From Proteus terrae (lineage in GTDB: Bacteria > Pseudomonadota > Gammaproteobacteria > Enterobacterales > Enterobacteriaceae): a stretch of 64,000 nucleotides of DNA. A model generated the notes under the pieces. That model saw nothing but the letters and a program-made list of their open reading frames with translations. It was not told the origin of the DNA and did no database searches. Location of the stretch: positions 62,001 through 126,000 of the forward strand of contig NZ_PENS01000012.1 in assembly GCF_003144325.1 (NCBI RefSeq). Reading direction: 5' to 3'. A program made the position numbers and the translations under genes. Every line of letters starts with the position of its first letter. The first letter of the stretch is position 1. This document shows, one piece after another, positions 8,585 to 62,094 of the stretch.

Positions 8585-9247
8585 CTAAAGAAGGCGACGA
8601 TCAAATGCAGTTTGCCAATCATCGGCGAATCTATTTACCGCATCATCCACAACCGGAGAACGAATAATAGAGTAAGCAAGCTCAATCGGTAATGTCACTG
8701 AAGAAGCGCCTGCTAATAAACAATCGACCACTTGTCGTGGTGTTTTAAAACTCGCTGCTAGGATTTTTGTGGGTAAATTATGCATAGTAATTAGAGTTTG
8801 TAACTCTTTTACCACTCTTACGCCATCAGAGCCTTGTCTATCCATTCGATGCACATAAGGAGCAATATAATCAGCGCCTGCTAATGCCGCCATTAACCCT
8901 TGAGACACACTGTAAATTGCAGTGCCCAATACCAGCATATTTTTTTGCTTTAATTGTTTAATAGCGACAAGCCCTGCTTCTGTAACAGGAATTTTAATCA
9001 CGGTATTATCCGCAATATTTCCGATACGCAATGCTTCTTCAATCATGGTATCGACATCACTGGCAATGACCTGTGCAAATACCCGACCTTTACCACCCAT
9101 AGCCGCTTTTAACTCAGGTAACAACGTTTCAATATCTTGTGCTGATTTAGCAATAATAGACGGATTGGTAGTGACACCTGCAATAGGAAGAACTTGAGAG
9201 AGTTTTCTGACTTCTTCGATATCCGCTGTATCTAAATAAATTTCCAT
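8585..9247 (-). CDS. fsa: fructose-6-phosphate aldolase (transaldolase-like, FSA/MipB)
   Basis: Class I aldolase of the transaldolase family that cleaves fructose 6-phosphate to dihydroxyacetone and glyceraldehyde 3-phosphate. It is 220 residues, as in E. coli FsaA. The Schiff-base lysine is Lys85 in VIKIPVTEAG. Other family segments are TTNPSIIAKS near residue 26, the GADYIAPYVHRMDRQG stretch near 127, and AASFKTPRQ near 165. The ATG follows a GAGG ribosome-binding site. It is monocistronic. The physiological role of FSA enzymes is not settled, though roles in dihydroxyacetone or glycerol metabolism are proposed. Confidence 0.92.
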   Translation of the reverse strand: MEIYLDTADIEEVRKLSQVLPIAGVTTNPSIIAKSAQDIETLLPELKAAMGGKGRVFAQVIASDVDTMIEEALRIGNIADNTVIKIPVTEAGLVAIKQLKQKNMLVLGTAIYSVSQGLMAALAGADYIAPYVHRMDRQGSDGVRVVKELQTLITMHNLPTKILAASFKTPRQVVDCLLAGASSVTLPIELAYSIIRSPVVDDAVNRFADDWQTAFDRRLL

Positions 9248-23163: not shown

Positions 23164-24159
23164 TTATATACTTTCACCCGTAATAATGCGGAAACCAACA
23201 TCAATCACTTGGCCTCGAGCAATTTTGCCTTTCATTCGCTTAAGCAATAAATCAGCAGCTTGTTGCCCCATTTCATCACGAGGGGTAAAGATACTCGCCA
23301 AACGAGGCGTCATCACTTGTCCAACATCGTGCCCGTGGAAACCCGATATCGCAATATCCTCCGGCACAGAAATGCCTAAACGTTGACACTCAAAAATGGC
23401 ACCAATTGCGATATCGTCATTGGTACAATAAAGTCCGTCTAAATCAGGATATTGCTTACGTGCAGCATGTAATAATTCAGCCCCTAACGAATAAGATGAG
23501 CTTTTTGGTGTCATCACATTGCCAATAGGTAAACCCGCATTTTGCATTGCGTTTTCATAACCTTGTAAACGCATTAAGGTTCTTTCGTCCTGTCTAGCAC
23601 CAAGATAGATAACCCGTTTGCATCCACGTTTGATCATCTCATTGACCATCTGTTCTGAAGCGTCAACGTTATCTAATCCTACTGCCGAGTCAAAACAAGG
23701 CGAAACGCTATCCATGATTTCTACCACAGGAATGCCCGCAGTTTCTAACATTTTCATTGTCTTTGGTGTGTGCGTTCTTTCAGCGAGAATAAGCCCATCG
23801 ATATTATAAGAGAGTAATGAAAGTAGGCGTTCTTCTTCTTTTTCAGCACGATATCCGTAGTGCGCTAACATGGTTTGATAACCGTATTTATCGGTCACTG
23901 ATTCAATGCCACGAATAACTTCAGCAAAAACTTGGTTAGTTAAAGAAGGCAGCAATACCCCAATCGCATGACTGGTTGAATTCGATAAAATATCAGGGGC
24001 ACGATTAGGAATATAATTGAGGCTATCTAATTCGCGCGCAATTTTTTCTCGTAAAGCTTCAGAGACTTGTTCGGGATTACGCAAAAAACGACTCACTGTC
24101 ATTTTGGTAACACCAACTCGTGAAGCGACATCCTGTAATGAGGGGCGTTTTTTCTTCAT
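23164..24159 (-). CDS. gntR: GntR, LacI-family gluconate repressor
   Basis: Repressor of gluconate genes, 331 residues from the ATG at 24159, the same as E. coli GntR; an upstream TTG at 24171 would add four residues and is not preferred. The N-terminal LacI helix-turn-helix reads LQDVASRVGVTKMTVSRFLRNPEQVS, followed by a hinge and a periplasmic-binding-protein-like effector domain (GVLLPSLTNQVFAEVIRGIESV near residue 60, CTNDDIAIGAIFECQRLG near 245). It lies upstream of gntKU in the same direction but with its own terminator, as in enteric gnt loci. Confidence 0.93.
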   Translation of the reverse strand: MKKKRPSLQDVASRVGVTKMTVSRFLRNPEQVSEALREKIARELDSLNYIPNRAPDILSNSTSHAIGVLLPSLTNQVFAEVIRGIESVTDKYGYQTMLAHYGYRAEKEEERLLSLLSYNIDGLILAERTHTPKTMKMLETAGIPVVEIMDSVSPCFDSAVGLDNVDASEQMVNEMIKRGCKRVIYLGARQDERTLMRLQGYENAMQNAGLPIGNVMTPKSSSYSLGAELLHAARKQYPDLDGLYCTNDDIAIGAIFECQRLGISVPEDIAISGFHGHDVGQVMTPRLASIFTPRDEMGQQAADLLLKRMKGKIARGQVIDVGFRIITGESI

Positions 24160-24331
24160 TTTATATCGCAACTATCCAAAAACACTCGTATTAATACGCG
24201 CTTTAATTTTCCAAGAACGCTGATTATAGCCCTAGGTTATACACTATTTCGAATAAAGTTTTTCAGATGTGTACTTAGATTTGATTTTGACTGATGATCC
24301 CTTGACTTAAGCCAAAGGAAATATAGTATTC

Positions 24332-24359
24332 ATCGCTATATAATAAATGAAACAACGAT
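24332..24359. promoter_or_regulatory. ModE-like operator upstream of the metal ABC operon
   Basis: The left half is ATCGCTATATA, then a six-base spacer (ATAAAT), then GAAACAACGAT. Against the ModE operator form I remember (ATCGnTATATA-N6-TATATAACGAT) the left half is a full match and the right half matches 8 of 11. It lies 31 bases before the first ATG of the operon, where bound ModE-molybdate would block transcription. A second box with identical geometry precedes the TonB receptor gene. This reading is an inference from sequence. Confidence 0.65.
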
Positions 24360-24390
24360 ACCAATATAAAACAATAAACAGTGTGAACTT

Positions 24391-25422
24391 ATGGCGATCC
24401 GTAGACGACAATTTCTAACTTACCTCACAACAATTGCGACATTATCAGCGCTTCCGCATTCTGTAAGAGCAGCAATAACCTCACGTATTGCAGCACAATT
24501 CGGTCATGTTCCAGCATCAACCGCGATCCATCGCGTAATAAGTGCAGGGCCTCCTACTGATCAATTGTTACTTGCATTAGCGCCTGAAAAATTATTGGGT
24601 TTTTCTTCACTTAATTTAGAAAAAAGCCCTTTGTTTTCAGATGAACTACGTAAATTACCGCGTTTAGGGCGCTTATCAGGACGAGGAAGTACACTCTCTT
24701 TAGAAGCTTTACTGACGTTAGAGCCAGATCTCATTATTGATAGTGGCAATGTCGATGAAACCTATCGTTCATTAGCGAAACGTGTTTCTGATCAAACGGG
24801 TGTACCTTATGTGTTAATTGATGGCACATTAAAAGATAGTCCAGCTCAGTTACGCCAAACAGGTGCTTTATTAGGTGTTACAGAAAGAGCAGAAACATTA
24901 GCGCTTATTGCAGAGCAATATCTTAGTGATGCTGCCTTATTTGCTTCTACACAAAAAACAAACCCTCGTTTTTACCTTGCGCGTGGTGCAAAAGGGTTAC
25001 AAACAGGTGCAAGAAACTCTATCCATACCGAAGCGATTGAAACATTAGGCTTTGAAAACGTAGTAGATATTCCGAATTTCACTGGATTAACGGATGTTTC
25101 ACCAGAGCAGCTTCTGATGTGGGATCCTGAAATTATCATCACACAAGATGAAAATGCCTATCAGCAAATTATGCAAGACTCTGTATGGAAAAGTATTCAA
25201 GCCGTTAAAAACAACAAAGTGCTACTGTTTAAAGGCTTACCATTTGGTTGGTTAGATGGTCCTCCGGGGATCAACCGTTTAATGGGAATGCGTCGCTTAC
25301 AAAGCCATTTTGACGCTCGAATAGAAAAACAAGTCGCTCAAGATCTGCAAAATTACTTTGCTCATTTTTATCATACGCAATTAAGTGCTGAACTATGTCA
25401 GCAATTGCTGGGGTATTCATGA
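24391..25422 (+). CDS. Tat-exported periplasmic binding protein of a metal/oxyanion ABC transporter (FecB/MolA-like)
   Basis: A 343-residue substrate-binding protein of the cluster that carries siderophores, haem, B12 and, in Haemophilus MolA, molybdate or tungstate. The N-terminus has a twin-arginine motif (RRRQFL) and a hydrophobic stretch ending near VRAA, so it is probably exported folded by Tat, which is less common for this family. Two lobes linked by a long helix are predicted; the segment GLTDVSPEQLLMWDPEIIIT near residue 235 is typical. First gene of a tightly overlapping operon behind a ModE-like operator. Confidence 0.82.
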   Translation: MAIRRRQFLTYLTTIATLSALPHSVRAAITSRIAAQFGHVPASTAIHRVISAGPPTDQLLLALAPEKLLGFSSLNLEKSPLFSDELRKLPRLGRLSGRGSTLSLEALLTLEPDLIIDSGNVDETYRSLAKRVSDQTGVPYVLIDGTLKDSPAQLRQTGALLGVTERAETLALIAEQYLSDAALFASTQKTNPRFYLARGAKGLQTGARNSIHTEAIETLGFENVVDIPNFTGLTDVSPEQLLMWDPEIIITQDENAYQQIMQDSVWKSIQAVKNNKVLLFKGLPFGWLDGPPGINRLMGMRRLQSHFDARIEKQVAQDLQNYFAHFYHTQLSAELCQQLLGYS

Positions 25423-26414
25423 GTCAATCCGTACGCATCACGCTTTTATTTGCATTATTCTCCATCGTTACGTTAATTGCGATTACTAGTGGTAAGTATT
25501 CACTTACTGGTAACGAGCTGTGGACACTGGTAAGTAATAAATTAACGGGCAATATAGAGTATAACCGCACTGAAACTGTCTTCTGGCAAATAAGATTTCC
25601 CCGCGTTCTGGCGGCAATTTTAATTGGTGGAGGACTTGCGATTGCTGGAGCAGCTTATCAAGGCATGTTCCGTAATCCTTTGGTATCACCCGATATTCTC
25701 GGCGTTTCATCAGGTGCTGGAGTGGGTGCTGTATTCGGTATTTTTCTTGGGCAATCCATGTTGTCGATCCAGCTTTTTGCCTTTGCTGGCGGCTTAACAA
25801 CAGTGGCCCTAGTCTACTTTATTGCGAGGCTTGCGAAACAACACGATCCGGTGCTTTCCCTTGTGTTGGTTGGTATTGCTATTAGTGCATTATGTGGCTC
25901 AGCAATCTCATTAATGAAAATTCTTGCTGATCCTTATACTCAATTGCCTTCCATTACCTTTTGGCTCTTAGGCGGGCTTTCGACCATTACTGCTTCTGAT
26001 TTAGTTTCTGTCGCACCTTTAATGTTAGTTGGTTTTATTCCACTCATTTTATTACGCTGGCGTATGAATATTCTCAGTTTATCTGATGAAGAAGCCAGAG
26101 CATTAGGTTTAAACGTCGAAGTAACCCGACTTGTCTTTATTTTGTCAGCCACACTAATCACCGCAAGTGCGGTTTCTATCGCGGGTATTATTGGGTGGCT
26201 AGGCTTAATTGTTCCTCACATCGCAAGATTGTTAGTGGGCGCTAACTTTAGCCAACAACTTCCTGTTTCCTTACTTGTGGGAGCTATAATGTTGTTAATT
26301 ACAGATACATTGGCTCGCACAATTGCCAATATTGAACTTCCACTAGGCATTTTAACATCTGCCATTGGTGCGCCATTCTTCTTAATGTTGTTACTTAGAA
26401 CGAGGAAAGGCTGA
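25419..26414 (+). CDS. FecCD/BtuC-type ABC permease (MolB-like)
   Basis: A 331-residue inner-membrane permease with about ten hydrophobic segments. Typical BtuC/FecCD elements are RFPRVLAAILIGGGLAIAGAAYQGMFRNPLVSPDILGVSSGAGVGA near residue 60 and the late IAGIIGWLGLIVPHIARLLVG segment that contacts the ATPase. The start at 25419 overlaps the previous stop as ATGA; an earlier ATG at 25395 would overlap the binding-protein gene by 28 bases. It is the pore of the importer formed with its two neighbours. Confidence 0.88.
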   Translation: MSQSVRITLLFALFSIVTLIAITSGKYSLTGNELWTLVSNKLTGNIEYNRTETVFWQIRFPRVLAAILIGGGLAIAGAAYQGMFRNPLVSPDILGVSSGAGVGAVFGIFLGQSMLSIQLFAFAGGLTTVALVYFIARLAKQHDPVLSLVLVGIAISALCGSAISLMKILADPYTQLPSITFWLLGGLSTITASDLVSVAPLMLVGFIPLILLRWRMNILSLSDEEARALGLNVEVTRLVFILSATLITASAVSIAGIIGWLGLIVPHIARLLVGANFSQQLPVSLLVGAIMLLITDTLARTIANIELPLGILTSAIGAPFFLMLLLRTRKG

Positions 26415-27208
26415 TGATCATTGCTAATGCAAAGCAACTCACCATTGGTTATAAAGGCAAAACCTTAATTAGAGATCTTACATTCCACATCGAACAAGGA
26501 CAAATCATCTGCTTATTAGGTGCCAATGGCTGCGGTAAAACGACGCTAATGCGAACACTATTAGGGCTAATACCTTGTATTGATGGTGAGATCAATATTG
26601 CGGGAAAAACATTAAGTGAGTGGTCACCAACCGAACTTGCCAAAGTAGTTGCCTATGTTCCTCAAGCCACACATATCCCCTTTTCTTTTAATGTCATCGA
26701 TATGGTTGTAATGGGGCGAGGTGCACATCTCTCTTTTTTCTCTATGCCTAGCTCGCAAGATAAAGCGATGGCAATGGGAACCTTAGAATTGCTCTCGCTT
26801 TCTCATCTTGCTCACCGAACTTTTGATACTTTAAGTGGTGGTGAAAAACAGATGGTTTTGATTGCTCGTGCTTTAGTGCAACAACCCAAGTTGCTGATCA
26901 TGGATGAACCTGCTGCAAGCCTTGATTTCGGTAATCAAATCAAACTGCTTACCCAAGTTAAGGCACTAAAAGCTTTAGGGATCAGCGTTTTTATGTCTAC
27001 ACATCACCCTCAACATGCTGCCTCTTTGGCGGATGATGTTATTTTACTGACACCGCATACCCCTGTTTTGCAAAACAGCCCTGAAGTTTTGCTGACACCC
27101 GATAATTTAGCGCACCTTTATGGTGTACAACCAACAGATATTCAGGCGCATTTTCACGCCTACTCTGATAATAAAAATGACTATAGGCAAGAATATGAAC
27201 ACTATTGA
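26414..27208 (+). CDS. ABC transporter ATPase (FecE/MolC-like)
   Basis: A 264-residue cytoplasmic ATPase. Walker A GANGCGKTT is at residues 36-44, the signature LSGGEKQ near 137, Walker B LLIMDEP near 155 and the H-loop STHHPQHA near 197. Its start overlaps the permease stop by one base and its end overlaps the methyltransferase gene by 14 bases. It energises import of the metal or metal chelate captured by the upstream binding protein. Confidence 0.9.
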   Translation: MIIANAKQLTIGYKGKTLIRDLTFHIEQGQIICLLGANGCGKTTLMRTLLGLIPCIDGEINIAGKTLSEWSPTELAKVVAYVPQATHIPFSFNVIDMVVMGRGAHLSFFSMPSSQDKAMAMGTLELLSLSHLAHRTFDTLSGGEKQMVLIARALVQQPKLLIMDEPAASLDFGNQIKLLTQVKALKALGISVFMSTHHPQHAASLADDVILLTPHTPVLQNSPEVLLTPDNLAHLYGVQPTDIQAHFHAYSDNKNDYRQEYEHY

Positions 27209-28019
27209 AACCACAGATTTTGCTGAACTTTATAAAAACCACATGGTACAGGCTGAAAGAACCAAAAAAGAGCCTGAACATTGGGATAAACGTGCTGAAA
27301 AAATGGCAGAAACTTGTGCCAACCCTAATGATCCTTATTTAATAAAATTTCGTGAAATGATGGATTTTACGGGTGCTGAAACCCTATTAGATGTGGGTTG
27401 TGGCCCCGGCTCTATCAGCATTCATGTGGCAGATAAATTCAAAAAAACCATTGGGATTGATTACAGTACAGGTATGTTAGCTGTTGCTAAACGCAGAGCT
27501 GAGCAAGCAGGTATCAACCACGCTGAATTTATCACTTGCTCATGGGAAGATAGCTGGGACCAACTTCCTCAATGTGATATCGCCGTTGCTTCACGCTCAA
27601 CATTAGTGATGGATTTACAAGCCGCACTCTTAAAACTGAATCGCCAAGCTAAATTACGTGTTTATACTACTCACACGGTTTCTCCAACCTTCGTTGACCA
27701 ACGTATTATTCGCTTATTGGGTCGTGAGGTTCCTACGCTCCCAACGTACATTTATGCTGTGAATATGCTAAACCAAATGGGTATTCACCCTAAAGTAGAT
27801 TATATCCGTAGCCGTAATTGCCAGAGTAATTTCAATAGCCTCGAGCAATTTATTGAAGGCATTAATTTCTCCGTAGGGCCTTTAAGCAAGGACGAAATTG
27901 TACGTCTAACTAATTACTATCATGAAAGTATTGAAAAAGGAGTTTCACTGATTTCACCAACTCGTGATTGGGCAATGGTTTCTTGGGATGTCGTTCCTGA
28001 AAGCGAGTTAAACCTATGA
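27195..28019 (+). CDS. class I SAM-dependent methyltransferase in the metal-uptake operon
   Basis: A 274-residue methyltransferase starting at 27195 (MNTIETTDF); the open frame from 27120 is ignored because it runs far into the ATPase gene. The SAM-binding motif I is LLDVGCGPGS near residue 63, followed by the acidic motif II IGIDYSTGM and the post-II segment FITCSWEDSWD. The substrate is unknown. Its place between an importer ATPase and ModD, overlapping both, suggests it modifies the transported ligand or a chelator. Not recognised as a named cofactor-pathway enzyme. Confidence 0.8.
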   Translation: MNTIETTDFAELYKNHMVQAERTKKEPEHWDKRAEKMAETCANPNDPYLIKFREMMDFTGAETLLDVGCGPGSISIHVADKFKKTIGIDYSTGMLAVAKRRAEQAGINHAEFITCSWEDSWDQLPQCDIAVASRSTLVMDLQAALLKLNRQAKLRVYTTHTVSPTFVDQRIIRLLGREVPTLPTYIYAVNMLNQMGIHPKVDYIRSRNCQSNFNSLEQFIEGINFSVGPLSKDEIVRLTNYYHESIEKGVSLISPTRDWAMVSWDVVPESELNL

Positions 28020-28864
28020 TTTATTATCCTGATGCCTTTCTTGATAATTTATTGATGGAAGATATCCAATATGGCGATCTCACCAGTCGGGCACTCAATA
28101 TTAGTGATCAGCTAGGTATAATGACATTTACACGTCGTGAACCCGGTTGTGTCAGTGGGATCACACTAGGTTGTCGTTTACTAGAAAAACTAGGATTGGT
28201 AGTAACAGCACATCTACAAGATGGTGATTTTGCCGATAAAGGCGATTGCTTAATCACCGCCGAAGGCCGTGCTGATGCACTACACCAAGGCTGGAAAGTT
28301 GTGCAAAACGTGCTTGAGTGGAGTTGTGGCGTGAGTGACTATATGGCAAGAATGCTAGAAATCTATCACCGTTATCAACCTAAAGGGCAAATTGCGTGTA
28401 CACGTAAAAATATCCCTAATACAAAGTTACTAGCAACTCAAGCGGTACTTGCAGGTGGTGGTGTTATTCATCGCCAAGGCTGTTCTGAAACTATTTTACT
28501 CTTTGCTAATCATCGTCGATTTTTATCAGAGCCTGATAATTGGGCACAACACATTAAGCTGTTACGCCAAGCGGCGCCTGAAAAATGCATTGTTGTAGAA
28601 GCCGACGATATTGAACAAGCAAGAGAAGCGTTAAAAGCACAGCCTGATATTTTACAGCTCGATAAATTCTCAACTGAAGATATCTCACTGTTACAACAAG
28701 AAGCGCCTCAAATTGCACCTCATTGTCACTTATCTGTAGCTGGCGGTATTAACCTCAATACTATCGAGAAATATGCACAAACAGGCATTACCTTAATGGT
28801 AACGTCTGCGCCTTATTATGCATCACCGACAGATATTAAAGTTCGCCTTTATCCAAAAGATTAA
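28016..28864 (+). CDS. modD: ModD, NadC-like protein of molybdenum-transport operons
   Basis: A 282-residue protein of the quinolinate phosphoribosyltransferase fold. ModD proteins accompany molybdate transporters in several bacteria and have no established reaction. Key segments are EDIQYGDLTS near residue 16, CTRKNIPNTK near 124 (TRKTTPG in NadC), AGGGVIHRQGCSETILLF near 141, and the phosphate-binding end SVAGGINLNTIEKYA. The Gly usual in TRKxxPG is replaced by Asn. It is not part of NAD synthesis here, as no nadA or nadB is nearby. The ATGA overlap with the methyltransferase implies coupled translation. Confidence 0.82.
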   Translation: MIYYPDAFLDNLLMEDIQYGDLTSRALNISDQLGIMTFTRREPGCVSGITLGCRLLEKLGLVVTAHLQDGDFADKGDCLITAEGRADALHQGWKVVQNVLEWSCGVSDYMARMLEIYHRYQPKGQIACTRKNIPNTKLLATQAVLAGGGVIHRQGCSETILLFANHRRFLSEPDNWAQHIKLLRQAAPEKCIVVEADDIEQAREALKAQPDILQLDKFSTEDISLLQQEAPQIAPHCHLSVAGGINLNTIEKYAQTGITLMVTSAPYYASPTDIKVRLYPKD

Positions 28865-29041
28865 ATAAAAACAGCAATTTATTTGTAAGTGAGTATTTAC
28901 ATATTTAATCAACAATAAATAGAGACAACATCAACTCAATGTAAAAGAAGTTATAACAAGGGAATAGTTGTAGTGGCATAGAGGAACATCTTTGCTGAAC
29001 ATCTTTTGTTTGAGTCTGTTGCTTTACTTTATAACAAGACC

Positions 29042-29066
29042 GAGTACTAACACTTTGTTAGTACTC
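29042..29066. terminator. hairpin between modD and the TonB receptor gene
   Basis: GAGTACTAACA and TGTTAGTACTC form an eleven-base perfect stem with a three-base loop (CTT), followed by AATTTATT. It lies about 180 bases after modD and just before the receptor's operator, so it probably ends the first transcription unit. Confidence 0.7.
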
Positions 29067-29091
29067 AATTTATTCATTTATTTTTACACAT

Positions 29092-29119
29092 ATCGTTATA
29101 TAAAAGATTATATATAGAT
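29092..29119. promoter_or_regulatory. ModE-like operator upstream of the TonB-dependent receptor gene
   Basis: The halves ATCGTTATATA and TATATATAGAT are separated by six bases (AAAGAT). Against the remembered ModE form the left half is a full match and the right half matches 9 of 11. It lies 17 bases before the receptor ATG, overlapping the expected promoter or leader. The same 11-6-11 layout precedes the ABC operon, linking the two units. Confidence 0.68.
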
Positions 29120-29136
29120 TGTAAACTGAGATTGGA

Positions 29137-31092
29137 ATGATGAAATTAAAACCTCTATGCTACTGTTTATCTCTTGCTCTACTGCCTAGTATTGCACTTG
29201 CTGACACCACTTATGGGCAATCAACGCCTGATTTATTAACCGTTTGGAGTAGTCCTATCGCGGCAAACCCAGACGTGTTAACACAAGAGCAGATGCTTGA
29301 ACAAAATAAAGTGAATGCGGCACAAGCCATTGCAACATTACCCGGTGTTGTTATGCAAAAATCTGGCAATCGTAATGAATACACCATTAAAGTACGTGGC
29401 TTTGATAGCCGCCAAGTACCTGTATTCTTTGATGGTATTCCAACGTATGTTCCTTATGATGGCAACTTAGACTTAGCGCGTTTTACCACTAACGATCTAG
29501 CCAGTATTGAAGTTAACAAAGGTTATACCTCATTACTACAAGGCCCTAACTTAATGGGTGGTGCAATTAATATCACTACGGCGACGCCTAAAAAACCATT
29601 AGAAGGAAGCATTGCTTATTCTCAAGGTTTTGCTCGTGGTGCTGATTATGCCCATAACATGAGTGCCCGTTTAGGAGCACGCAATGATCTAGGCTTTATT
29701 CAAATCAGTGGTAGTCAATTAAAACAACGCTTTACGCCAATTCCTGGTGCTGATGAAAATAATGCAGCTGCGGGTACTCATGGACGTCGTGATAATTCGG
29801 CAACTGATGATAAACGTGGCATGATCAAAGTGGGTTGGACACCACGCGCTTCTGACGAATATACCCTGACTTATGTAAAACAGGACGGTGAAAAAAATAG
29901 CCCACCAAATACTTCTGCTAATGCAAAAGGTAAATATAAATATTGGGCATGGCCAGATTACAACAAAGAGAGTTACTACTATAGCGGTATCACTCAAATC
30001 ACTGATGGTATTAATCTGCAAAGCCGTGCATACCACGATAAGTTCGAAAATACCCTCTATATGTACCCTAAAAAAGGTAATACCGTAGACTATAGTCACT
30101 ATGACGATTACAGCACCGGTGCTGCATTACAGTTAGGTATAGATACACGTGAAAGTGACCTCCTCTCTTTTGCTGCACACTGGAAAGATGACGTTCACCG
30201 TTCTCAAAAAGAAAAAAATGGTGATTGGATGCGTTATAAAGACAGAACATGGTCTTTAGCGACAGAATATCAATGGGCAGCTACTAATGATCTCGATTTA
30301 GTAGGTGCAATTAGCTACGACTGGCGTGACAGTGTTGATACTGATAAAGGGGCTGATGATAATAAGCAAACCGCCTTTAACTGGGAGATAATGGCTAAAT
30401 ATTCATTAGCCAATAATGATAACGTTCGTTTCTCTGTTTCTGATCGCAGCCGCTTCCCGACACAAAAAGAGCGTTACACCACTGAAAAACCAAAAGATGG
30501 ATCAAAAGGAATTATCAATCCAGATTTAGATCCTGAACGTGCATTATCTTTCGACCTAACCTATGAAGGACACATTACAGATAAATGGGGTTACCAAACC
30601 AGCATTTACTATAACCGTATCAGTGATGCGATTATGGCACACACGGTTTATCGTAATGGCAAAGCATTCTTCCAAAACCAAAATAGCGGACGTGTTGACT
30701 ATGTTGGTCTTGATTTAGGTACTAAAGGTAATGTGGTTGATTGGTTAGAGCTTGGCTTAAACTACAGCTATATTCATAGCGATCCAAAACAAGTAGCGCA
30801 TGTTGAAGGTTTACCAAAACATAAAGCCTATATGTGGATGACATTTATTCCTGTTGAACAAGTCCGTTTTACCATTATCGAAGAAGCACAAGGTTGGACT
30901 TATAATCGCATTGATGAAAATGACAAGTTAGCAGGTTATGTAAAAACTGATCTTCGTTTAGATTATGAATTTGGTTATGGCGTTTCTGCTAATGCTTCTA
31001 TTAATAACCTTTTTGATAAATCTTATGAATATACTCAAGGTTATATGGAAGATGGTCGTAATTACTGGTTAGGTGTAGAATATAAATTCTAA
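29137..31092 (+). CDS. TonB-dependent outer-membrane receptor, probably for a molybdenum/tungsten or other metal chelate
   Basis: A 651-residue receptor with a signal peptide ending at ALA-DTT (residue 22). The plug domain follows (QAIATLPGVVMQKSGNRNEYTIKVRGFDSR near residue 65, then VFFDGIPTY and GGAINITTATPK). A 22-strand barrel ends with NYWLGVEYKF and a terminal Phe. DLLTVWSS near residue 31 may be the TonB box. Substrate cannot be read from sequence, but the shared ModE-like operator and adjacent importer-ModD operon point to a molybdate- or tungstate-containing chelate; no Fur-box-like sequence was seen. Confidence 0.85.
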   Translation: MMKLKPLCYCLSLALLPSIALADTTYGQSTPDLLTVWSSPIAANPDVLTQEQMLEQNKVNAAQAIATLPGVVMQKSGNRNEYTIKVRGFDSRQVPVFFDGIPTYVPYDGNLDLARFTTNDLASIEVNKGYTSLLQGPNLMGGAINITTATPKKPLEGSIAYSQGFARGADYAHNMSARLGARNDLGFIQISGSQLKQRFTPIPGADENNAAAGTHGRRDNSATDDKRGMIKVGWTPRASDEYTLTYVKQDGEKNSPPNTSANAKGKYKYWAWPDYNKESYYYSGITQITDGINLQSRAYHDKFENTLYMYPKKGNTVDYSHYDDYSTGAALQLGIDTRESDLLSFAAHWKDDVHRSQKEKNGDWMRYKDRTWSLATEYQWAATNDLDLVGAISYDWRDSVDTDKGADDNKQTAFNWEIMAKYSLANNDNVRFSVSDRSRFPTQKERYTTEKPKDGSKGIINPDLDPERALSFDLTYEGHITDKWGYQTSIYYNRISDAIMAHTVYRNGKAFFQNQNSGRVDYVGLDLGTKGNVVDWLELGLNYSYIHSDPKQVAHVEGLPKHKAYMWMTFIPVEQVRFTIIEEAQGWTYNRIDENDKLAGYVKTDLRLDYEFGYGVSANASINNLFDKSYEYTQGYMEDGRNYWLGVEYKF

Positions 31093-31195: not shown

Positions 31196-32236
31196 TTAAA
31201 ATTTAAGAAATCCTCTTGCCATTTCTAATAATGTATTCATGGTACTACTCACTATTTTCACAAAATTATCATAGTTACTATTGGCTGCACTATATTTTTT
31301 GGAAAGTTCATCAAGATTTGTATTAACACCTTTTTCAAAGGCATCTAACGTTTTCTTCAATAAATCAAACTCAGTTTGTAATATATCATGCTCACCTTGC
31401 GGCATTTGTTTTAAATAATCAATTAATTTATCTAGCCCTGATAAATCTAATCCAACATTAAATAAAAAAGAAATATTAGGTCTAGTCGTTCCTGAATTAT
31501 CATTTTTTTGTGATGTAATGCCTTTGATTTGACTCAGTAATTTATCTACTGCGTCCACAGCGTTATCAGCATCGGTATTACTTTCATAATAGACTTTTTC
31601 ACCATTGATTATTCTAAAAAATCGGCCATCATCATCCTTATTAAAAAACATCCATACGCTAAAAAACCCAGGTTTATTCAACTTGCTTTTTAATACATTC
31701 AATTTATAAAGCAATTCATCAATATTTATATTGATATATCCATCTTTACTTCCAGCCTTAGTAGCATTACCTAATTCAGATAATATTTCTCTTAACTCTC
31801 TTACAAAATCCATATATTTAGAGAATATTTCTTTAAATACATCTAAGTAGTCATTTTTACCCACGGCAATGGATTGTTTTACATCATTAAAGAGATCATG
31901 CAATGAATCTGTTGGATAATTTTTCTTTAATTGAGCATTTTTTATATCTCGAGAGATATCATTAATTTCATCTAAACACTTTTTTTTATTAATATAATTT
32001 TTCACATAGTCTTCATCAAGAGAAAGATATTTTCCTTTTTGAGATTTATTTTCTAATTTTTTATTTTCTTTAGAATCATTAAGAAAAAAATATTGATACT
32101 CTCTTTTTATATACTCGAATAATAAACGAGAATTAATTAAAAATTCATCTTGATTACATTCTATTAAATTAGACAATTGAGAATTTAAGTATACTTTATT
32201 ATTTTTAGAAAAATTACAATCAATAGTAGCATCCAT
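31196..32236 (-). CDS. sipD: T3SS needle-tip/translocator protein, IpaD/SipD/BipD family (intact copy)
   Basis: A 346-residue IpaD-type tip protein (IpaD 332, SipD 343). The C-terminal coil LSKKYSAANSNYDNFVKIVSSTMN, ending in a hydrophobic FLKF, is the hallmark of the family and is needed for tip assembly. N-terminal residues 1-110 are Lys/Asn-rich and probably form the self-chaperoning helical hairpin; the NYPTDSLHDLF segment near 107 starts the central coiled-coil. It is the last gene of the minus-strand operon and is paralogous to the frameshifted gene just upstream. Confidence 0.82.
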   Translation of the reverse strand: MDATIDCNFSKNNKVYLNSQLSNLIECNQDEFLINSRLLFEYIKREYQYFFLNDSKENKKLENKSQKGKYLSLDEDYVKNYINKKKCLDEINDISRDIKNAQLKKNYPTDSLHDLFNDVKQSIAVGKNDYLDVFKEIFSKYMDFVRELREILSELGNATKAGSKDGYININIDELLYKLNVLKSKLNKPGFFSVWMFFNKDDDGRFFRIINGEKVYYESNTDADNAVDAVDKLLSQIKGITSQKNDNSGTTRPNISFLFNVGLDLSGLDKLIDYLKQMPQGEHDILQTEFDLLKKTLDAFEKGVNTNLDELSKKYSAANSNYDNFVKIVSSTMNTLLEMARGFLKF

Positions 32237-32366
32237 AGCATTAACCTTCTTAATATTAATTAAATAAAGTAAGTCATTTTAAACAGGAATTTAAAATCAC
32301 ATACTGTGTTAGCATTATTGGACAATTTTCTCTAATAAATAATTTTTAATTTTAAATATATAAAAT

Positions 32367-33612
32367 TTAGAATCGCAAAAAACCTTTTGCCATCTCTAGT
32401 AATGTATTAATTGTACTGCTGACAATTTTCACAAAGTTATCATAATTACTATTTGCTGAACTATATTTTTTAGAAAGTTCATCCAAATTAGTATTTATCT
32501 TTTTTTCTAAAGCATCAAGTGATTTTTTAAATAGATCAAATTCCGTTTGTAAGATATTTTTAAATCTCTTCTCATCTCTTTCTTTTTTTAATTTTTCTAT
32601 ATTTTCATTAGCATAGAATTCAGCTTGTTTTAGAATTGTTTTTTTATCCACATTAATAAAATTTAAAACCATTTTTGGATATTTATTAACATACTCATTT
32701 ATAAAACCTTCTCTTTTACTTTCTATTTCATCATTCGTCATTTCTTTTTCTTTACTTATTTTATCATTAACTATATCTAAGATCTTATTTAATTCATTTA
32801 ATGAAATATAATAAAAAAAATCCACATCAATATTATTCCACTCTGATAATAAATTTTCTTTTTTCGCTGGTATAATTCCTTTTACATCCATTAACAATTT
32901 ACTTATTGCATTTAAAGCATGATCAACTTGCTTTTTATTTGAATAATTTATTTTATGATTATTTAAGTGTCTTATATAACTACCATCATACTGATATTCA
33001 AAAAACAATTTAGTGTTAAAAAATAATTTCTCTTTATTTTTTCTATTATATTCATTTTTAAAACTTTCTAATACTCTTGTGAATTCAATGAAATTAACAG
33101 CAATATACCCATCTTTTTTCCCTGCCTTGGTATATTTACTTAGTGATGTTATCGCCGTTCTTAATTCTCTTACATAATCCATATAATTAGAAAAAATAGA
33201 TTTAAATACATCTAAATAATCATTTTTACCAACAATAATGGATTGTTTGACTTCATGAAAGAAATCACTCAATGAATCAGTAGGATAGTTATCATTAGAA
33301 AGTTTTTCTTTTATCAGTGGTGATAATTTATCTATGGAATTCAAACATTTTTTATTCCCAATAATATTTTTATTATATTGTTCAGAGAGAGATAAATATT
33401 TCTCTCTCTGTTTTTCCTTTTAAATCATTACATATCAGCCAGCTATTAAGATCAAAATTTTTATAATCTCGTCTTATATTTATAAGTAAACTTTCCATTT
33501 CATCGAAATTTTTTATTTTACGTTTAGGAATGGAAATACCATCACTCGTTGATAAAGATACTTCCAAATACTCAGCTATATTAGACATCCCTGAATCAAT
33601 AGCTTTAGACAT
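32367..33612 (-). pseudogene. second IpaD/SipD-like tip protein gene, interrupted by a frameshift
   Basis: Two reading frames together match the intact paralogue downstream. The first (33612-33382, 76 residues) aligns with its N-terminus up to LKGKTER and then hits TGA. The second resumes KYLSLSEQY and runs to 32367, ending KYSSANSNYDNFVKIVSSTIN. The second frame alone has no ATG start, only a TTG, and a stop lies just upstream in that frame. The switch must fall in 33384-33417, which contains four AG repeats. One extra AG pair would restore a protein of about 415 residues. A sequencing error cannot be excluded. Confidence 0.8.
33384..33409. repeat. inverted repeat with dinucleotide run at the frameshift
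   Basis: AGAGAGAGA and TCTCTCTCT flank an eight-base AT loop. Slippage in the AG run, or hairpin-driven replication error, can explain the loss of two bases in the tip-protein gene. Confidence 0.75.
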
Positions 33613-33624
33613 AAAATTATCCTC

Positions 33625-34452
33625 TTATACTTTTGAAGCAATAGCAGAAGCAACATCTTGCTGAGCATGAATAACAGCTTCAATAGCTTGTACTAAGGCT
33701 TTGATAATTTCAGTAACTTCTCTTTGCATTTCATTATTATTATTAATAACATGATTGTTAATACTTCCTCTCGCTTCTAATACTTTTTGTTTACCATCAA
33801 GTATGATCCCTTGAGACTGCATCGTTTGATCTGCAACTCTTGCCAAAGGATCTGCTGTTGTAGTCACTAGATTACCAGTAATCATAGTAGGGTTAGAGTG
33901 TCCTATTAGATTTTTTCCCATCCCTTTAATTGAAACAAATGCTCCCATACCATGTATTGCCATTGAAATACCTGCGCTAGTAATGGCTGCACCTACCATA
34001 ATATTTGCTTTTTTATTTAAATTATCTTTTATTTGTTCTGCTATATTTAATTCTACATTCATTAACATAACACCCATTTCTCTAGATGCTTCAAACTTCT
34101 TAATCATTGCTTCTAAATATCTAACCATTAAATTAATTAATTTCATCATATCATCAGATAAAAAATCAAACGTTCCTAGGCTTTCAGTTTTAATATGATC
34201 ATAAATATCATTATCATTATCTACTTCAAGTGATTTTAATATGTCTTTTATAGTGGGTGTTTTTACTTCTGGCTCTGACAAAATTGGTATTATATTTTCT
34301 TTTGTTTTTTCTATAAATTCTTTTACTTTAGGTTCAATTAATCTTTGTAACTGTTCTTCATTAAGAGAGTTTTTAGTCTCATTAATATCACTCGATTCTA
34401 ATTTAGAGTTATTAAATAATTTAAAATCATCATTATTGACTTTCATATTCAT
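33625..34452 (-). CDS. sipC: T3SS translocator, SipC/IpaC-like (SctB)
   Basis: A 275-residue protein in the position of sipC/ipaC, shorter than SipC (409) or IpaC (363). The central region holds a hydrophobic, glycine-rich stretch (IMVGAAITSAGISMAIHGMG near residue 148) expected to insert in the host membrane. The C-terminus EIIKALVQAIEAVIHAQQDVASAIASKV is a helix resembling the family end. Upstream GAGG fits the ATG. With the SipB-like protein it should form the translocon pore. The short length suggests the actin-modulating C-terminal portion of SipC is reduced. Confidence 0.72.
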   Translation of the reverse strand: MNMKVNNDDFKLFNNSKLESSDINETKNSLNEEQLQRLIEPKVKEFIEKTKENIIPILSEPEVKTPTIKDILKSLEVDNDNDIYDHIKTESLGTFDFLSDDMMKLINLMVRYLEAMIKKFEASREMGVMLMNVELNIAEQIKDNLNKKANIMVGAAITSAGISMAIHGMGAFVSIKGMGKNLIGHSNPTMITGNLVTTTADPLARVADQTMQSQGIILDGKQKVLEARGSINNHVINNNNEMQREVTEIIKALVQAIEAVIHAQQDVASAIASKV

Positions 34453-34479
34453 ATATAAACCTCGAAAAAATAGACTTTA

Positions 34480-36678
34480 TTAAATAGATATATTTTTTAT
34501 AATATCTGACTTTAATTTATTACTCACTGAAGATTTATCACTCATGCTTTTTAAAATCTCAGTTAAAGTATCAATATTTTCATGATAACTTTCCATTATC
34601 TTATCCATCAATTTTTGAATTAGATTTAATATGGCTTCCAACTTTTTACTATCTGCCATAGATTGCAAAATTTTTGCAGAAATAATGCTACTATAAATAT
34701 TAACTGCATTTGTTGCCGTTGAGTTTACCAATTTAGAAATAACCACCGTACGATTTAACATGGTGATAGCTTTCTGTGAAATATCCTTAGTCAGTTGTTT
34801 ATTAATTTTCTCCATTACTTCTTCAAGTGCTTGCACAATGATTTCTTTAATCATTTTTCCCATCATAGATTCTAATGCATCATGCAATATTCTTTTTAAT
34901 GTATCTCTGAGTTGTTGATTAAATATTTTATTTGCAACATTGGTCATACCTTTCATTGCAGGACCAATTACAAAGCTTAATGCCATTGCAGCAACAAATA
35001 AAATAACAGTAATAGCTATTTTTAGTGCCATTTTCAGTTTTTCTTGAATTGAATTTTTCATCTCCTCAATCATTTTCTTATCTAAGCCCAATCCCTTTAA
35101 TCCATCTATAGTGCTATTAATTACATCAGCTAAAAAATCAACAATGGAATCTATCGCTTTCATAATAGCTTCTGAAACAGGTGCCATTATTTCGTCCATA
35201 AACGATTTATCATGTATAGCTTGATATACTTCATCAGCGACAGTTAACGCCACATCAGCGACAAATAATGTTACCGCAACAGCCATTAATGCCATTGAAG
35301 CACCTGCTGTAAAAATAGAAGCAATACCTGCGACAAGTGCGAGTAATCCACCTAAAATTTTTAAACCAATGCCAGCCCAAAATTGAATCTCCTCTTGCTT
35401 TTTAATTTGAGCTTTTTGATCTTCTATTTTATCTTTTAATGTTTTTTCAGTGACTTCCTGCATTTCTTCAAAGAGTTTTTGCTCACTTTCAGTTCGCTGT
35501 AACATTACTTTTAATGTTAATTCTCTTGTTTTCGCCAACAAAAAAGTTAACAATGCCATTCCTGATAATGAGTCAGACATTATTTCAAGCTCTAATGCAC
35601 TTTGTGAAAGCGTTAATGTTCTATAGGTATCTTTTATTTGTTCCAGCTTTTCTTTAATTGACTCATTTTCTTTCTTATTTATTAATGCTTTTAATTCTTC
35701 TCTATGTGACGTAATTTTATTTATCTTATCGTCGCTTATAGGCACGTTAGGCATATATTTAAAAGCTTCATCAAAAAAATCAGATAGTTTTCCATATAAT
35801 TTATCTAATTCATCTAATGACATTTTTGAAAGATCATCAGGCAACTTCATAAATGGAAAAGCTTTTTCAAGTAACTTTTCCGTATCTTCTTTCGATTTAA
35901 TATTTCCAGAGAGTAATTCTTTAATTAATGAGCTTGGGATATTGTTGTTTTTTAAAAACTTTTCAACTTCTGCTTCTGTTTTGAAATTATTATCTTTTAG
36001 CTGATTATAAATTTCCATCCAATAATCAACATAAGCATTTTTAGTATTTTTTACTTCATCTAAAACTGAATTAATTTGTTCTTTTAAACCATCAATGCCT
36101 TTAGATAGTTTATCTAACTTATCCAGATAGTACTCAAGTTTATCTGGATCTTTAATGTTATTTAAAACATTTTGATGGATCACATTTTGATAAGATAATT
36201 GTAAGAATAAAAAATCATAATCTTTACTTGTTTTATTATTTTCTAATTTAATTGGCTCTGAAGGTATAGGTAGTAATGATTTATTTTTATATGTATTTAA
36301 TTTTCCCTCTACTTTTTTGTTATATAGATATTTCTCCTCACTAAGAATATTAAGTTTTTTGTTTCTTTTATTAACTTTATTTATCTCATTAAAATTTAAT
36401 GTCTCATTATTATTTTCATTTTGTTCTGAAAAAACATTTATTTTATATTTAATATCATCTTTAATATTAATTCTTTGATTATTCTTTTTTTGCTCTAATG
36501 GCACACGAAGTGAAGGTGCTAAAAAATTATTTTCTTTTTCTTTGAATTGTGATGCGACAAGATGCTCACTTGCCGCATTAATTTGTTGTGCTTGCTGTAC
36601 GTTATCTTTAGTAATTTTATCTATCTCTTTAGAAGTTAAAGGTGTAGATAATATTGTGTTATCATAAACCTTAATCAT
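34480..36678 (-). CDS. sipB: T3SS translocator, SipB/IpaB-like (SctE)
   Basis: A 732-residue protein, longer than SipB (593) or IpaB (580). Residues 180-400 are predicted coiled-coil. Two hydrophobic hairpins follow: IGLKILGGLLALVAGIASIF to LFVADVALTVADE near residues 435-480, and ALKIAITVILFVAAMALSFVIG near 545. This is the SipB layout. The extra length is an N-terminal Lys/Asn-rich extension of about 150 residues. It starts next to the chaperone gene stop (TAGCATG), so co-translation with its chaperone SicA is expected. Confidence 0.85.
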   Translation of the reverse strand: MIKVYDNTILSTPLTSKEIDKITKDNVQQAQQINAASEHLVASQFKEKENNFLAPSLRVPLEQKKNNQRINIKDDIKYKINVFSEQNENNNETLNFNEINKVNKRNKKLNILSEEKYLYNKKVEGKLNTYKNKSLLPIPSEPIKLENNKTSKDYDFLFLQLSYQNVIHQNVLNNIKDPDKLEYYLDKLDKLSKGIDGLKEQINSVLDEVKNTKNAYVDYWMEIYNQLKDNNFKTEAEVEKFLKNNNIPSSLIKELLSGNIKSKEDTEKLLEKAFPFMKLPDDLSKMSLDELDKLYGKLSDFFDEAFKYMPNVPISDDKINKITSHREELKALINKKENESIKEKLEQIKDTYRTLTLSQSALELEIMSDSLSGMALLTFLLAKTRELTLKVMLQRTESEQKLFEEMQEVTEKTLKDKIEDQKAQIKKQEEIQFWAGIGLKILGGLLALVAGIASIFTAGASMALMAVAVTLFVADVALTVADEVYQAIHDKSFMDEIMAPVSEAIMKAIDSIVDFLADVINSTIDGLKGLGLDKKMIEEMKNSIQEKLKMALKIAITVILFVAAMALSFVIGPAMKGMTNVANKIFNQQLRDTLKRILHDALESMMGKMIKEIIVQALEEVMEKINKQLTKDISQKAITMLNRTVVISKLVNSTATNAVNIYSSIISAKILQSMADSKKLEAILNLIQKLMDKIMESYHENIDTLTEILKSMSDKSSVSNKLKSDIIKNISI

Positions 36679-61449: not shown

Positions 61450-62094
61450 TTAGCTGACAATAAATACGCTATCGTTGTTACGAAGCCCTGCAGCATTAGC
61501 TTCATCAGTATCTATATGAAATTCCAAAGCGAATTTTTCACTAACACGAACAACAACTTCATCAAAAATCAGGCTACGCTCACCTTCTGTTTTAACGTGT
61601 ACTTTTTGCCCATTGGTGACATTTAACATTCTGGCGTCAATTTCACTCATATGAATATGGCGTTGAGCACAGATCACTTGCTCTTGTAATTCAACATGAC
61701 CCGCAGGCCCCATTAATACAGCTTGACCTGAACCGACTAAATCACCTGATTCACGTACTGGTGCTTTTACACCTAATACAAAACAGTCTGCTTTTGAGAT
61801 TTCTAACTGACTTTGTGGACGAACCGGCCCTAAAACTCGAACTTTACTGATCGAGCCTTTTGGTCCCACAACCATCACACACTCTTTTGCTGCAAACTGA
61901 CCCGGTTGTTTAAGATCTTTAAATGGGGTGAGTTGATAACCTTTACCAAATAACGCTTCAACATCTTGTTGTGAAAGATGCACATGACGATTAGAAATAC
62001 CAACAGGGATAGCCATTCCTTGCGTTTCTCCCAACATCACTCCATGAACGGGCAAGCGAGAGAGAATTTTTCCCATGAGTTGTTGATTAATCAT
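61450..62094 (-). CDS. pduL: PduL-type phosphate acyltransferase of the microcompartment
   Basis: A 214-residue zinc-dependent phosphotransacylase (unrelated to Pta) that converts acetyl-CoA to acetyl-phosphate and recycles CoA inside the shell. The two PduL repeats carry metal-ligand histidines in GISNRHVHLSQQDVEALFG near residue 31 and AQRHIHMSEIDARML near 141, with FHIDTDEANAAG near the C-terminus. Its ATG overlaps the shell-protein stop by one base. Acetyl-CoA here would come from choline-derived acetaldehyde. Confidence 0.93.
   Translation of the reverse strand: MINQQLMGKILSRLPVHGVMLGETQGMAIPVGISNRHVHLSQQDVEALFGKGYQLTPFKDLKQPGQFAAKECVMVVGPKGSISKVRVLGPVRPQSQLEISKADCFVLGVKAPVRESGDLVGSGQAVLMGPAGHVELQEQVICAQRHIHMSEIDARMLNVTNGQKVHVKTEGERSLIFDEVVVRVSEKFALEFHIDTDEANAAGLRNNDSVFIVS

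Follow-up and report, generated by a model that had tools for sequence, protein, structure and literature searches.

A ModE-boxed import operon and TonB-dependent receptor in Proteus terrae: a probable acquisition system for molybdenum and/or tungsten

What would a bacterium bring in through a locus that looks like an iron-siderophore importer but carries operator-like sequences for ModE? Such a locus occupies positions 24,332 to 31,092 of a 64,000-nucleotide stretch of the Proteus terrae genome (RefSeq assembly GCF_003144325.1, contig NZ_PENS01000012.1, forward-strand positions 62,001 to 126,000); this whole stretch is called the window here, and coordinates refer to it unless another locus is named. 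The locus encodes a periplasmic substrate-binding protein (SBP), a permease and an ATPase of the ATP-binding cassette (ABC) type, a methyltransferase, ModD and a TonB-dependent receptor, and with a probability of roughly 0.8 its sequence marks it as a ModE-repressed, TonB-dependent acquisition system for molybdenum and/or tungsten. Control by ModE, judged from the predicted boxes, seems close to certain, and molybdenum or tungsten is likely the ligand; that the ligand is a chelate and that ModD and the methyltransferase process it are reasoned guesses. Re-reading of the window places the six genes and both boxes where a first-pass annotation, made from the DNA letters, had put them:

24332-24359, strandless: predicted ModE box 1, ATCGCTATATA-ATAAAT-GAAACAACGAT; left half perfect, right half with 3 mismatches
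24391-25422, plus strand: periplasmic SBP, Peripla_BP_2 (Pfam), with an RRRQFL Tat-like signal
25419-26414, plus strand: FecCD-type permease (Pfam, 5e-91)
26414-27208, plus strand: ABC ATPase (Pfam)
27195-28019, plus strand: class I S-adenosylmethionine (SAM) methyltransferase of the yc73 type (Pfam), with motif DVGCGPG
28016-28864, plus strand: ModD, phosphoribosyltransferase-like, of the quinolinate phosphoribosyltransferase (QPRTase) family (TIGR01334, 389.4 bits versus a cut-off of 178.85)
29092-29119, strandless: predicted ModE box 2, ATCGTTATATA-AAAGAT-TATATATAGAT; left half perfect, right half with 1 mismatch
29137-31092, plus strand: TonB-dependent receptor, with a signal peptide, a TonB-box-like DLLTVWSSP, Plug (1e-20) and barrel (2e-28) domains (Pfam)

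Gene calls and Pfam matches agree on the layout that this annotation had described, an overlapping operon of SBP, FecCD permease, ATPase, methyltransferase and ModD followed by the TonB receptor; every gene of the operon overlaps the next one, and a 272-bp gap separates the ModD gene from that of the receptor. ModD alone among the six proteins exceeds a curated NCBIfam cut-off; the SBP, permease and receptor fall under every NCBIfam cut-off listed, and the ATPase and methyltransferase under those of the best 25 models listed. By its features the receptor is a TonB-dependent transporter, with Plug and barrel domains above their Pfam cut-offs and a TonB-box-like N-terminus; a V/I-W-S/G motif stands at the place of the TonB box in all 23 Enterobacterales and Shewanella rows among the 40 listed.

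The E. coli ModE consensus is ATCGNTATATA-N6-TATATANCGAT according to the available text of PMC545781, and the consensus used when the boxes were first noticed agrees with it, geometry included. Box 1 lies directly past a TTGACT-16-TAGTAT match at the expected start site of the operon, which is where a repressor would act, and box 2 starts about 42 bp upstream of the receptor gene. The left half with zero mismatches (ATCGYTATATA) is found exactly twice in the window, at boxes 1 and 2. As evidence this half-site count was discarded, since the 4.1-Mb genome holds 11 such half-sites versus 11 for a reversed control; it is not significant genome-wide, and therefore the full palindrome decides. The 24-bp palindrome CGYTATATA-N6-TATATARCG occurs with up to three mismatches at 25 places in the genome versus 18 for the reversed control, and with up to two mismatches at eight places, box 2 included. 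A scoring matrix was derived from six ModE-like sites elsewhere in the genome, all picked by consensus and none lying in the window. It gives box 2 a score of 22.0 and box 1 one of 19.8, the two highest of any 28-mer in the window; the third scores 12.3, and the highest score across 20 simulated 64-kb windows is 16.2.

A six-sequence SBP alignment, searched against 84,980 species genomes, returned 211 relatives, and the best 80 loci were analysed; promoter stretches were taken to run from position -300 to position +30 around each estimated start of SBP and receptor. With up to three mismatches allowed, 51,055 bp of promoter stretch hold 96 ModE boxes and the 1,258,958 bp elsewhere hold 13, a 182-fold enrichment, and at least two of these 13 precede other molybdenum-type genes (a second SBP in L102 and modE in L129). 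A promoter box is present in 65 of the 80 loci and in 23 of 33 genus-level groups, as assigned from record titles; the loci are related and hence not independent tests, Proteus (10) and Providencia (11) together supplying 21 of them. All 10 Proteus loci have a box at this threshold 5′ of the SBP gene. By matrix rank and by promoter enrichment, both boxes thus stand above background. Matches to modE lie within seven of the 80 loci and matches to modA within two, and in L047 (genome G557) the receptor gene is divergent to a modE above the TIGR00637 cut-off.

The P. terrae genome has the modE gene on which the original proposal depended (TIGR00637, 123.7 bits versus a cut-off of 98.5). Boxes with up to three mismatches also lie at the promoters of modA (two sites, with modE divergent), moaA, dmsA, fhlA and phsA, before a second ModA-like protein, and before an operon whose second gene encodes an aldehyde ferredoxin oxidoreductase, a member of a tungsten-enzyme family. 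These genes were first named by eye; NCBIfam confirmed moaA, the second ModA-like protein, the oxidoreductase and also dmsA, fhlA and phsA, these last three as pieces truncated where the locus stops; a modB above its cut-off comes after the main modA. The dmsA and oxidoreductase boxes have three mismatches, a level that the reversed control reaches too, and some of the 25 genome places look like chance (e.g., C33:66618). At L043:7288-9092 (G000:C22, minus strand), a FecB-like SBP and a ModA-like protein lie behind a 3-mismatch ModE box; the pair is divergent to an open reading frame (ORF) at 9228+ (htpG by eye) and has no permease adjoining. ModE is an established repressor, and at low cellular molybdate it would leave both predicted boxes, where its binding is presumed, so that both units would be transcribed.

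A FecBCD-type importer beside a TonB receptor is the usual layout for siderophores, and the receptor profile has Cir, a catecholate receptor, as its best solved relative (3e-42). The locus might then take up a ferric siderophore, as proposed for the E. coli prrA-modD-yc73-fepC cluster, with the ModE boxes coupling iron supply to molybdoenzyme demand; in their available text, two reports on that cluster give iron uptake as proposed or possible and do not mention its ModE box (PMC1890555, PMC12928451). This explanation is very improbable. The first-pass annotation had named Fur-dependent expression among the outcomes that would refute it, and neither window promoter has a Fur box, the best Fur-like match having 8 mismatches in 19 positions in both 24091-24421 and 28837-29167. 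The genome encodes 16 plug-domain receptors (with starts guessed by script for the upstream search); two of them are preceded, at no more than 400 bp, by a ModE box with up to three mismatches, and a third by a 4-mismatch site. The two ModE-boxed receptors lack a Fur-like site at up to six mismatches; among the 14 without a ModE box, six have one at up to four mismatches, two at six only, and six have none at up to six, so a missing Fur site is weak evidence alone. Across the 80 loci, Fur-like sites with up to five mismatches number 9 in 51 kb of promoter stretches versus 96 in 1,259 kb elsewhere, a 2.3-fold excess that we attribute to AT-rich intergenic DNA; ModE boxes are enriched 182-fold. 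On these counts, the window matches and the receptor comparison, Fur control was rejected. Also speaking against a siderophore are ModD inside the operon, a permease and ATPase nearest MolB and MolC (see below), and neighbours without a siderophore gene among the four scanned (gntR, gntK and a gluconate transporter on the left and an SseC-like gene). A list of iron-induced P. mirabilis receptors in the available text of PMC11026637, whose locus tags are unmapped, does not include ModD; a term search of this metal review gave no word starting with molybd, tungst or ModD.

The importer genes lead back to molybdenum or tungsten. The parallel that had been drawn with MolBCA holds for both membrane-linked parts: the best solved relative of the permease is HI1471/MolB (2nq2_A, 1e-64), ahead of FhuB, HmuU and BtuC, and the only solved match of the ATPase at E<=1e-40 is HI1470/MolC (2nq2_C, 3e-41). 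The locus resembles MolBCA (HI1470-HI1472) of Haemophilus influenzae in these two proteins, and its SBP is related to HI_1472, behind two nearer solved proteins (see below); what it adds to the MolBCA plan is a TonB receptor with a ModE box, a methyltransferase and ModD. The two types stand side by side in one relative, at L030:7473-18222 (G304), where an inverted block carrying ModD together with a MolA-like SBP, an ATPase and a permease interrupts the operon and ModE boxes occur in three positions; the second SBP of L030 is 23% identical to that of the window, and its solved matches are 4ovk (1.5e-22) and MolA (4.5e-21). With ModABC-ModE the window system shares the repressor box, and ModD adjoins modABC-like genes elsewhere (by eye, in L033, L036 and L038); unlike the window system, ModABC has no outer-membrane part. 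A ModABC-type importer was ruled out because the Pfam families are Peripla_BP_2 and FecCD instead of ModA and ModB, and ModD was dropped as a marker of ModABC only because it occurs in several contexts. EitABCD of ColV plasmids was likewise rejected as a relative (EitC model, 134 versus a cut-off of 485). The receptor's single-sequence likeness to solved receptors is weak, the best being BtuB at 3e-11. BtuB, ZnuD, OprC and CntO are TonB receptors for metals other than iron or for cofactors, and resemble it in their plug and barrel families and in metal- or cofactor-responsive control; none of them is known to be under ModE. The modE gene, the boxes, the missing Fur box and the kinship with MolB and MolC therefore support the first-pass view of molybdenum or tungsten acquisition across both membranes, with either metal as the likely ligand.

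In what form might the metal arrive? Haemophilus MolA reportedly binds both molybdate and tungstate, and with a MolBC-like permease and ATPase the system might import the bare oxyanion, its TonB receptor serving only at extreme scarcity. We consider this unlikely, since the usual cargo of TonB receptors is larger or rarer and the operon holds enzymes for an organic ligand. Moreover, porins are thought to let free molybdate through by diffusion (available text of a Salmonella metal review, PMC8264917), which makes a chelate a likelier cargo of the receptor than the bare oxyanion. It would take a molybdenum or tungsten species over the outer membrane with TonB energy, probably as an organic complex such as a catecholate, and the SBP with the MolBC-like FecCD permease and ATPase, whose architecture is that of such an importer, would carry it to the cytoplasm. 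Molybdate binds catechols well and the receptor is nearest Cir, so a molybdenum-catecholate is a natural candidate ligand, if only as a hint.

The methyltransferase and ModD might then act on the imported ligand, perhaps in metal release or ligand recycling. ModD keeps TRK, HR, a Glu and an Asp, so that residues matching R139, K140, H161, R162, E201 and D222 of M. tuberculosis QPRTase are all present, but K94 replaces Arg105 and F163 replaces Lys172 (M. tuberculosis numbering), two residues that bind quinolinate; among 57 aligned ModDs the Lys is present in 57 and the Phe in 56, with one gap. A quinolinate phosphoribosyltransferase was therefore rejected as its identity, and since the phosphoribosyl pyrophosphate (PRPP) and Mg residues are kept and the quinolinate-binding lysine is lost, ModD should transfer phosphoribose to some other acceptor. 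Its function is given as unknown in the available text of PMC8046923. The methyltransferase has 34 invariant columns in a 25-member alignment; in E. coli strain 110 (L180) it is annotated as a pseudogene with an internal stop, the other five operon genes being annotated unflagged.

Two enzymes that likely act on organic molecules within the operon would also suit a BtuB-BtuFCD-like importer of an organic cofactor, for example molybdopterin or a breakdown product, with ModD and the methyltransferase as salvage enzymes; FecBCD-type importers are established carriers of cobalamin as well (BtuCDF), and ModE would report the same shortage. There is little likelihood of this either, to judge by gene content. 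Across the 80 loci, some of which are cut by contig ends, the SBP is found in 80, FecCD in 78, the ATPase in 78, the receptor in 76, the methyltransferase in 61, ModD in 51 and all six in 49; the core of SBP, FecCD, ATPase and receptor is present in 76, but ModD is not found in 29 and the methyltransferase not in 19. The likeness to MolBC, too, points to a metal oxyanion or its complex.

Is this locus a single case? The second ModE-boxed receptor of the genome is a TIGR01783 protein (284 bits) at L042:12876-16076 (G000:C34:198876-202076), directly after phsABC; a FecB-like SBP follows it, and three ModE-box matches, two of them overlapping, lie upstream. Relatives of this receptor occupy 22 loci, spread over 21 of 198 family genomes (own genome included), and all 22 have a ModE box with 1-3 mismatches just upstream. 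The FecB-like SBP follows the receptor in eight of nine wider stretches (in the ninth, the ORF caller kept an opposite ORF), and in three a FecCD/ATPase pair is directly next. Because two different receptor families carry ModE boxes, neither chance nor a peculiarity of a single operon seems a likely explanation. It is a tentative thought, with chances somewhat short of even, that at least two TonB receptor families scavenge chelated molybdenum or tungsten (by a "molybdophore" or other ligand) under ModE, ModD and the methyltransferase being the cytoplasmic ligand-processing enzymes.

Several observations weigh against a molybdenum or tungsten system under ModE. Box 1 has three mismatches, a level matched also by the reversed control, and is convincing only with its conservation. 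Fifteen of the 80 loci have no box at up to three mismatches in their promoter stretches; 11 of these belong to Burkholderiales (L110, L116-L120, L122 and L124-L127; the order assignment of Paenalcaligenes and Oryzisolibacter was checked), and the others are one each of Citrobacter braakii, a Lysobacteraceae metagenome-assembled genome, Xanthomonas and Pseudomonas. A box lies farther upstream in two of the 15 (L117 and L128), and the boxless Burkholderiales loci L120, L125 and L127 have a modE match nearby. The SBP profile is nearer to the uncharacterised solved proteins 4pag (2e-51) and 4ovk (1e-23) than to MolA (3psa/3psh, 2e-20, third). TIGR00637 matches are found in 36 of the 37 genomes with the SBP, above the cut-off in 32, and 35 were counted, since the match in G1090 is weak (8e-5); ModE is doubtful in that SBP-bearing genome, where the contig ends too early to tell. 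The remaining genome, the Proteus relative G825, has the SBP and a boxed modA (L177) and no ModE match genome-wide or in the 4.8 kb upstream of modA, which may be a loss or an assembly gap. ModB matches are present in all 37 genomes (above the cut-off in 36), so the window-type system is hardly the sole molybdenum route. In Rhodobacter sphaeroides kept without oxygen, a shortage of iron induces modA and modD (available text of PMC4176601), so molybdenum genes may have some link to iron. Finally, regulation by molybdate would also fit the import of something needed only when molybdenum is short.

The distribution of the SBP is patchy: within the GTDB family, 33 of 392 genomes carry it at E<=1e-30, and within the class 5 of 369 do so at 1e-20, both counts including the own genome. 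The window SBP and its Proteus columbae counterpart share 98% identity. The best-known relative is the E. coli prrA-modD-yc73-fepC cluster (CFT073 island; O157 OI#55/S-loop 83), which has the same six genes in the same order at 44-61% identity. It differs from the window in having 25 bp between modD and the receptor gene, so that it is probably one transcription unit, and its ModE box has one mismatch in L013 and L180. Among 5,426 complete E. coli genomes, 2,102 have an operon match; in 2,094 a single place covers at least 80% of the operon, and eight places are on plasmids. E. coli K-12 lacks the operon and has ycgY between ymgE and treA instead, which may be why work on ModE in K-12 missed it.

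A literature search found no earlier link of ModE or molybdenum with a TonB receptor and no paper tying the E. coli operon to ModE; it left most subscription papers uncovered and is no proof of absence. In their available text, PMC8600466, PMC4176601 and PMC13207237 name ModD and TonB receptors and draw no link between them, although in Zymomonas both are up under N2 fixation (PMC8600466), and in that of the regulon paper PMC5343134 the sole mention of molybdenum is a reference title. If the reading proposed here is true, an apparent iron-siderophore importer is controlled by a molybdenum switch, and bacteria pull molybdenum or tungsten through both membranes, paying energy for it at the outer one, probably since host or environment complexes the metal. 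On the more tentative view of two receptor families with a ligand-processing ModD, an operon now presumed to serve iron in about 39% of complete E. coli genomes would become a molybdenum system, and ModD would gain a function. Nitrate, dimethyl sulfoxide and formate metabolism in the gut and urinary tract depend on molybdoenzymes, and molybdenum chelates as nutrients, the role of ModD and competition for molybdenum at these sites become testable questions.

Minor features of the window locus and its relatives follow. Three further elements lie around the boxes:

24302-24329, plus strand: sigma-70-like promoter TTGACT-16-TAGTAT, 9/12 consensus match, directly 5′ of box 1; such matches number 2 versus 1.1 expected in a 201-bp stretch and are weak alone
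29042-29066, plus strand: hairpin in the gap from ModD to the receptor, resembling a terminator on either strand, with a weak T tail; 2 found versus 0.1 expected
29083-29111, plus strand: promoter-like TTTACA-17-GATTAT overlapping box 2; 1 found versus 1.9 expected in shuffles, no evidence alone

The N-terminus of the SBP (24391-24420) has the twin-arginine motif RRRQFL, with RRRF in its E. coli relative, so that the protein may be exported folded by the twin-arginine translocation (Tat) system; FhuD is a binding protein exported in this way. All five ORFs scanned between receptor and SBP in related loci (L047, L106, L110, L118 and L126) encode DUF2478 proteins, the members being several Burkholderiales and two unplaced relatives, and at L115:13090-13938 (Corticimicrobacter) a DUF364 protein, a putative heavy-metal chelation protein, adjoins the receptor; locus membership suggests a tie of both proteins to molybdenum uptake. 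Directly past the window receptor, on the minus strand at 31196-36678, lie a gene for an SseC-like type III secretion translocator and its neighbours.

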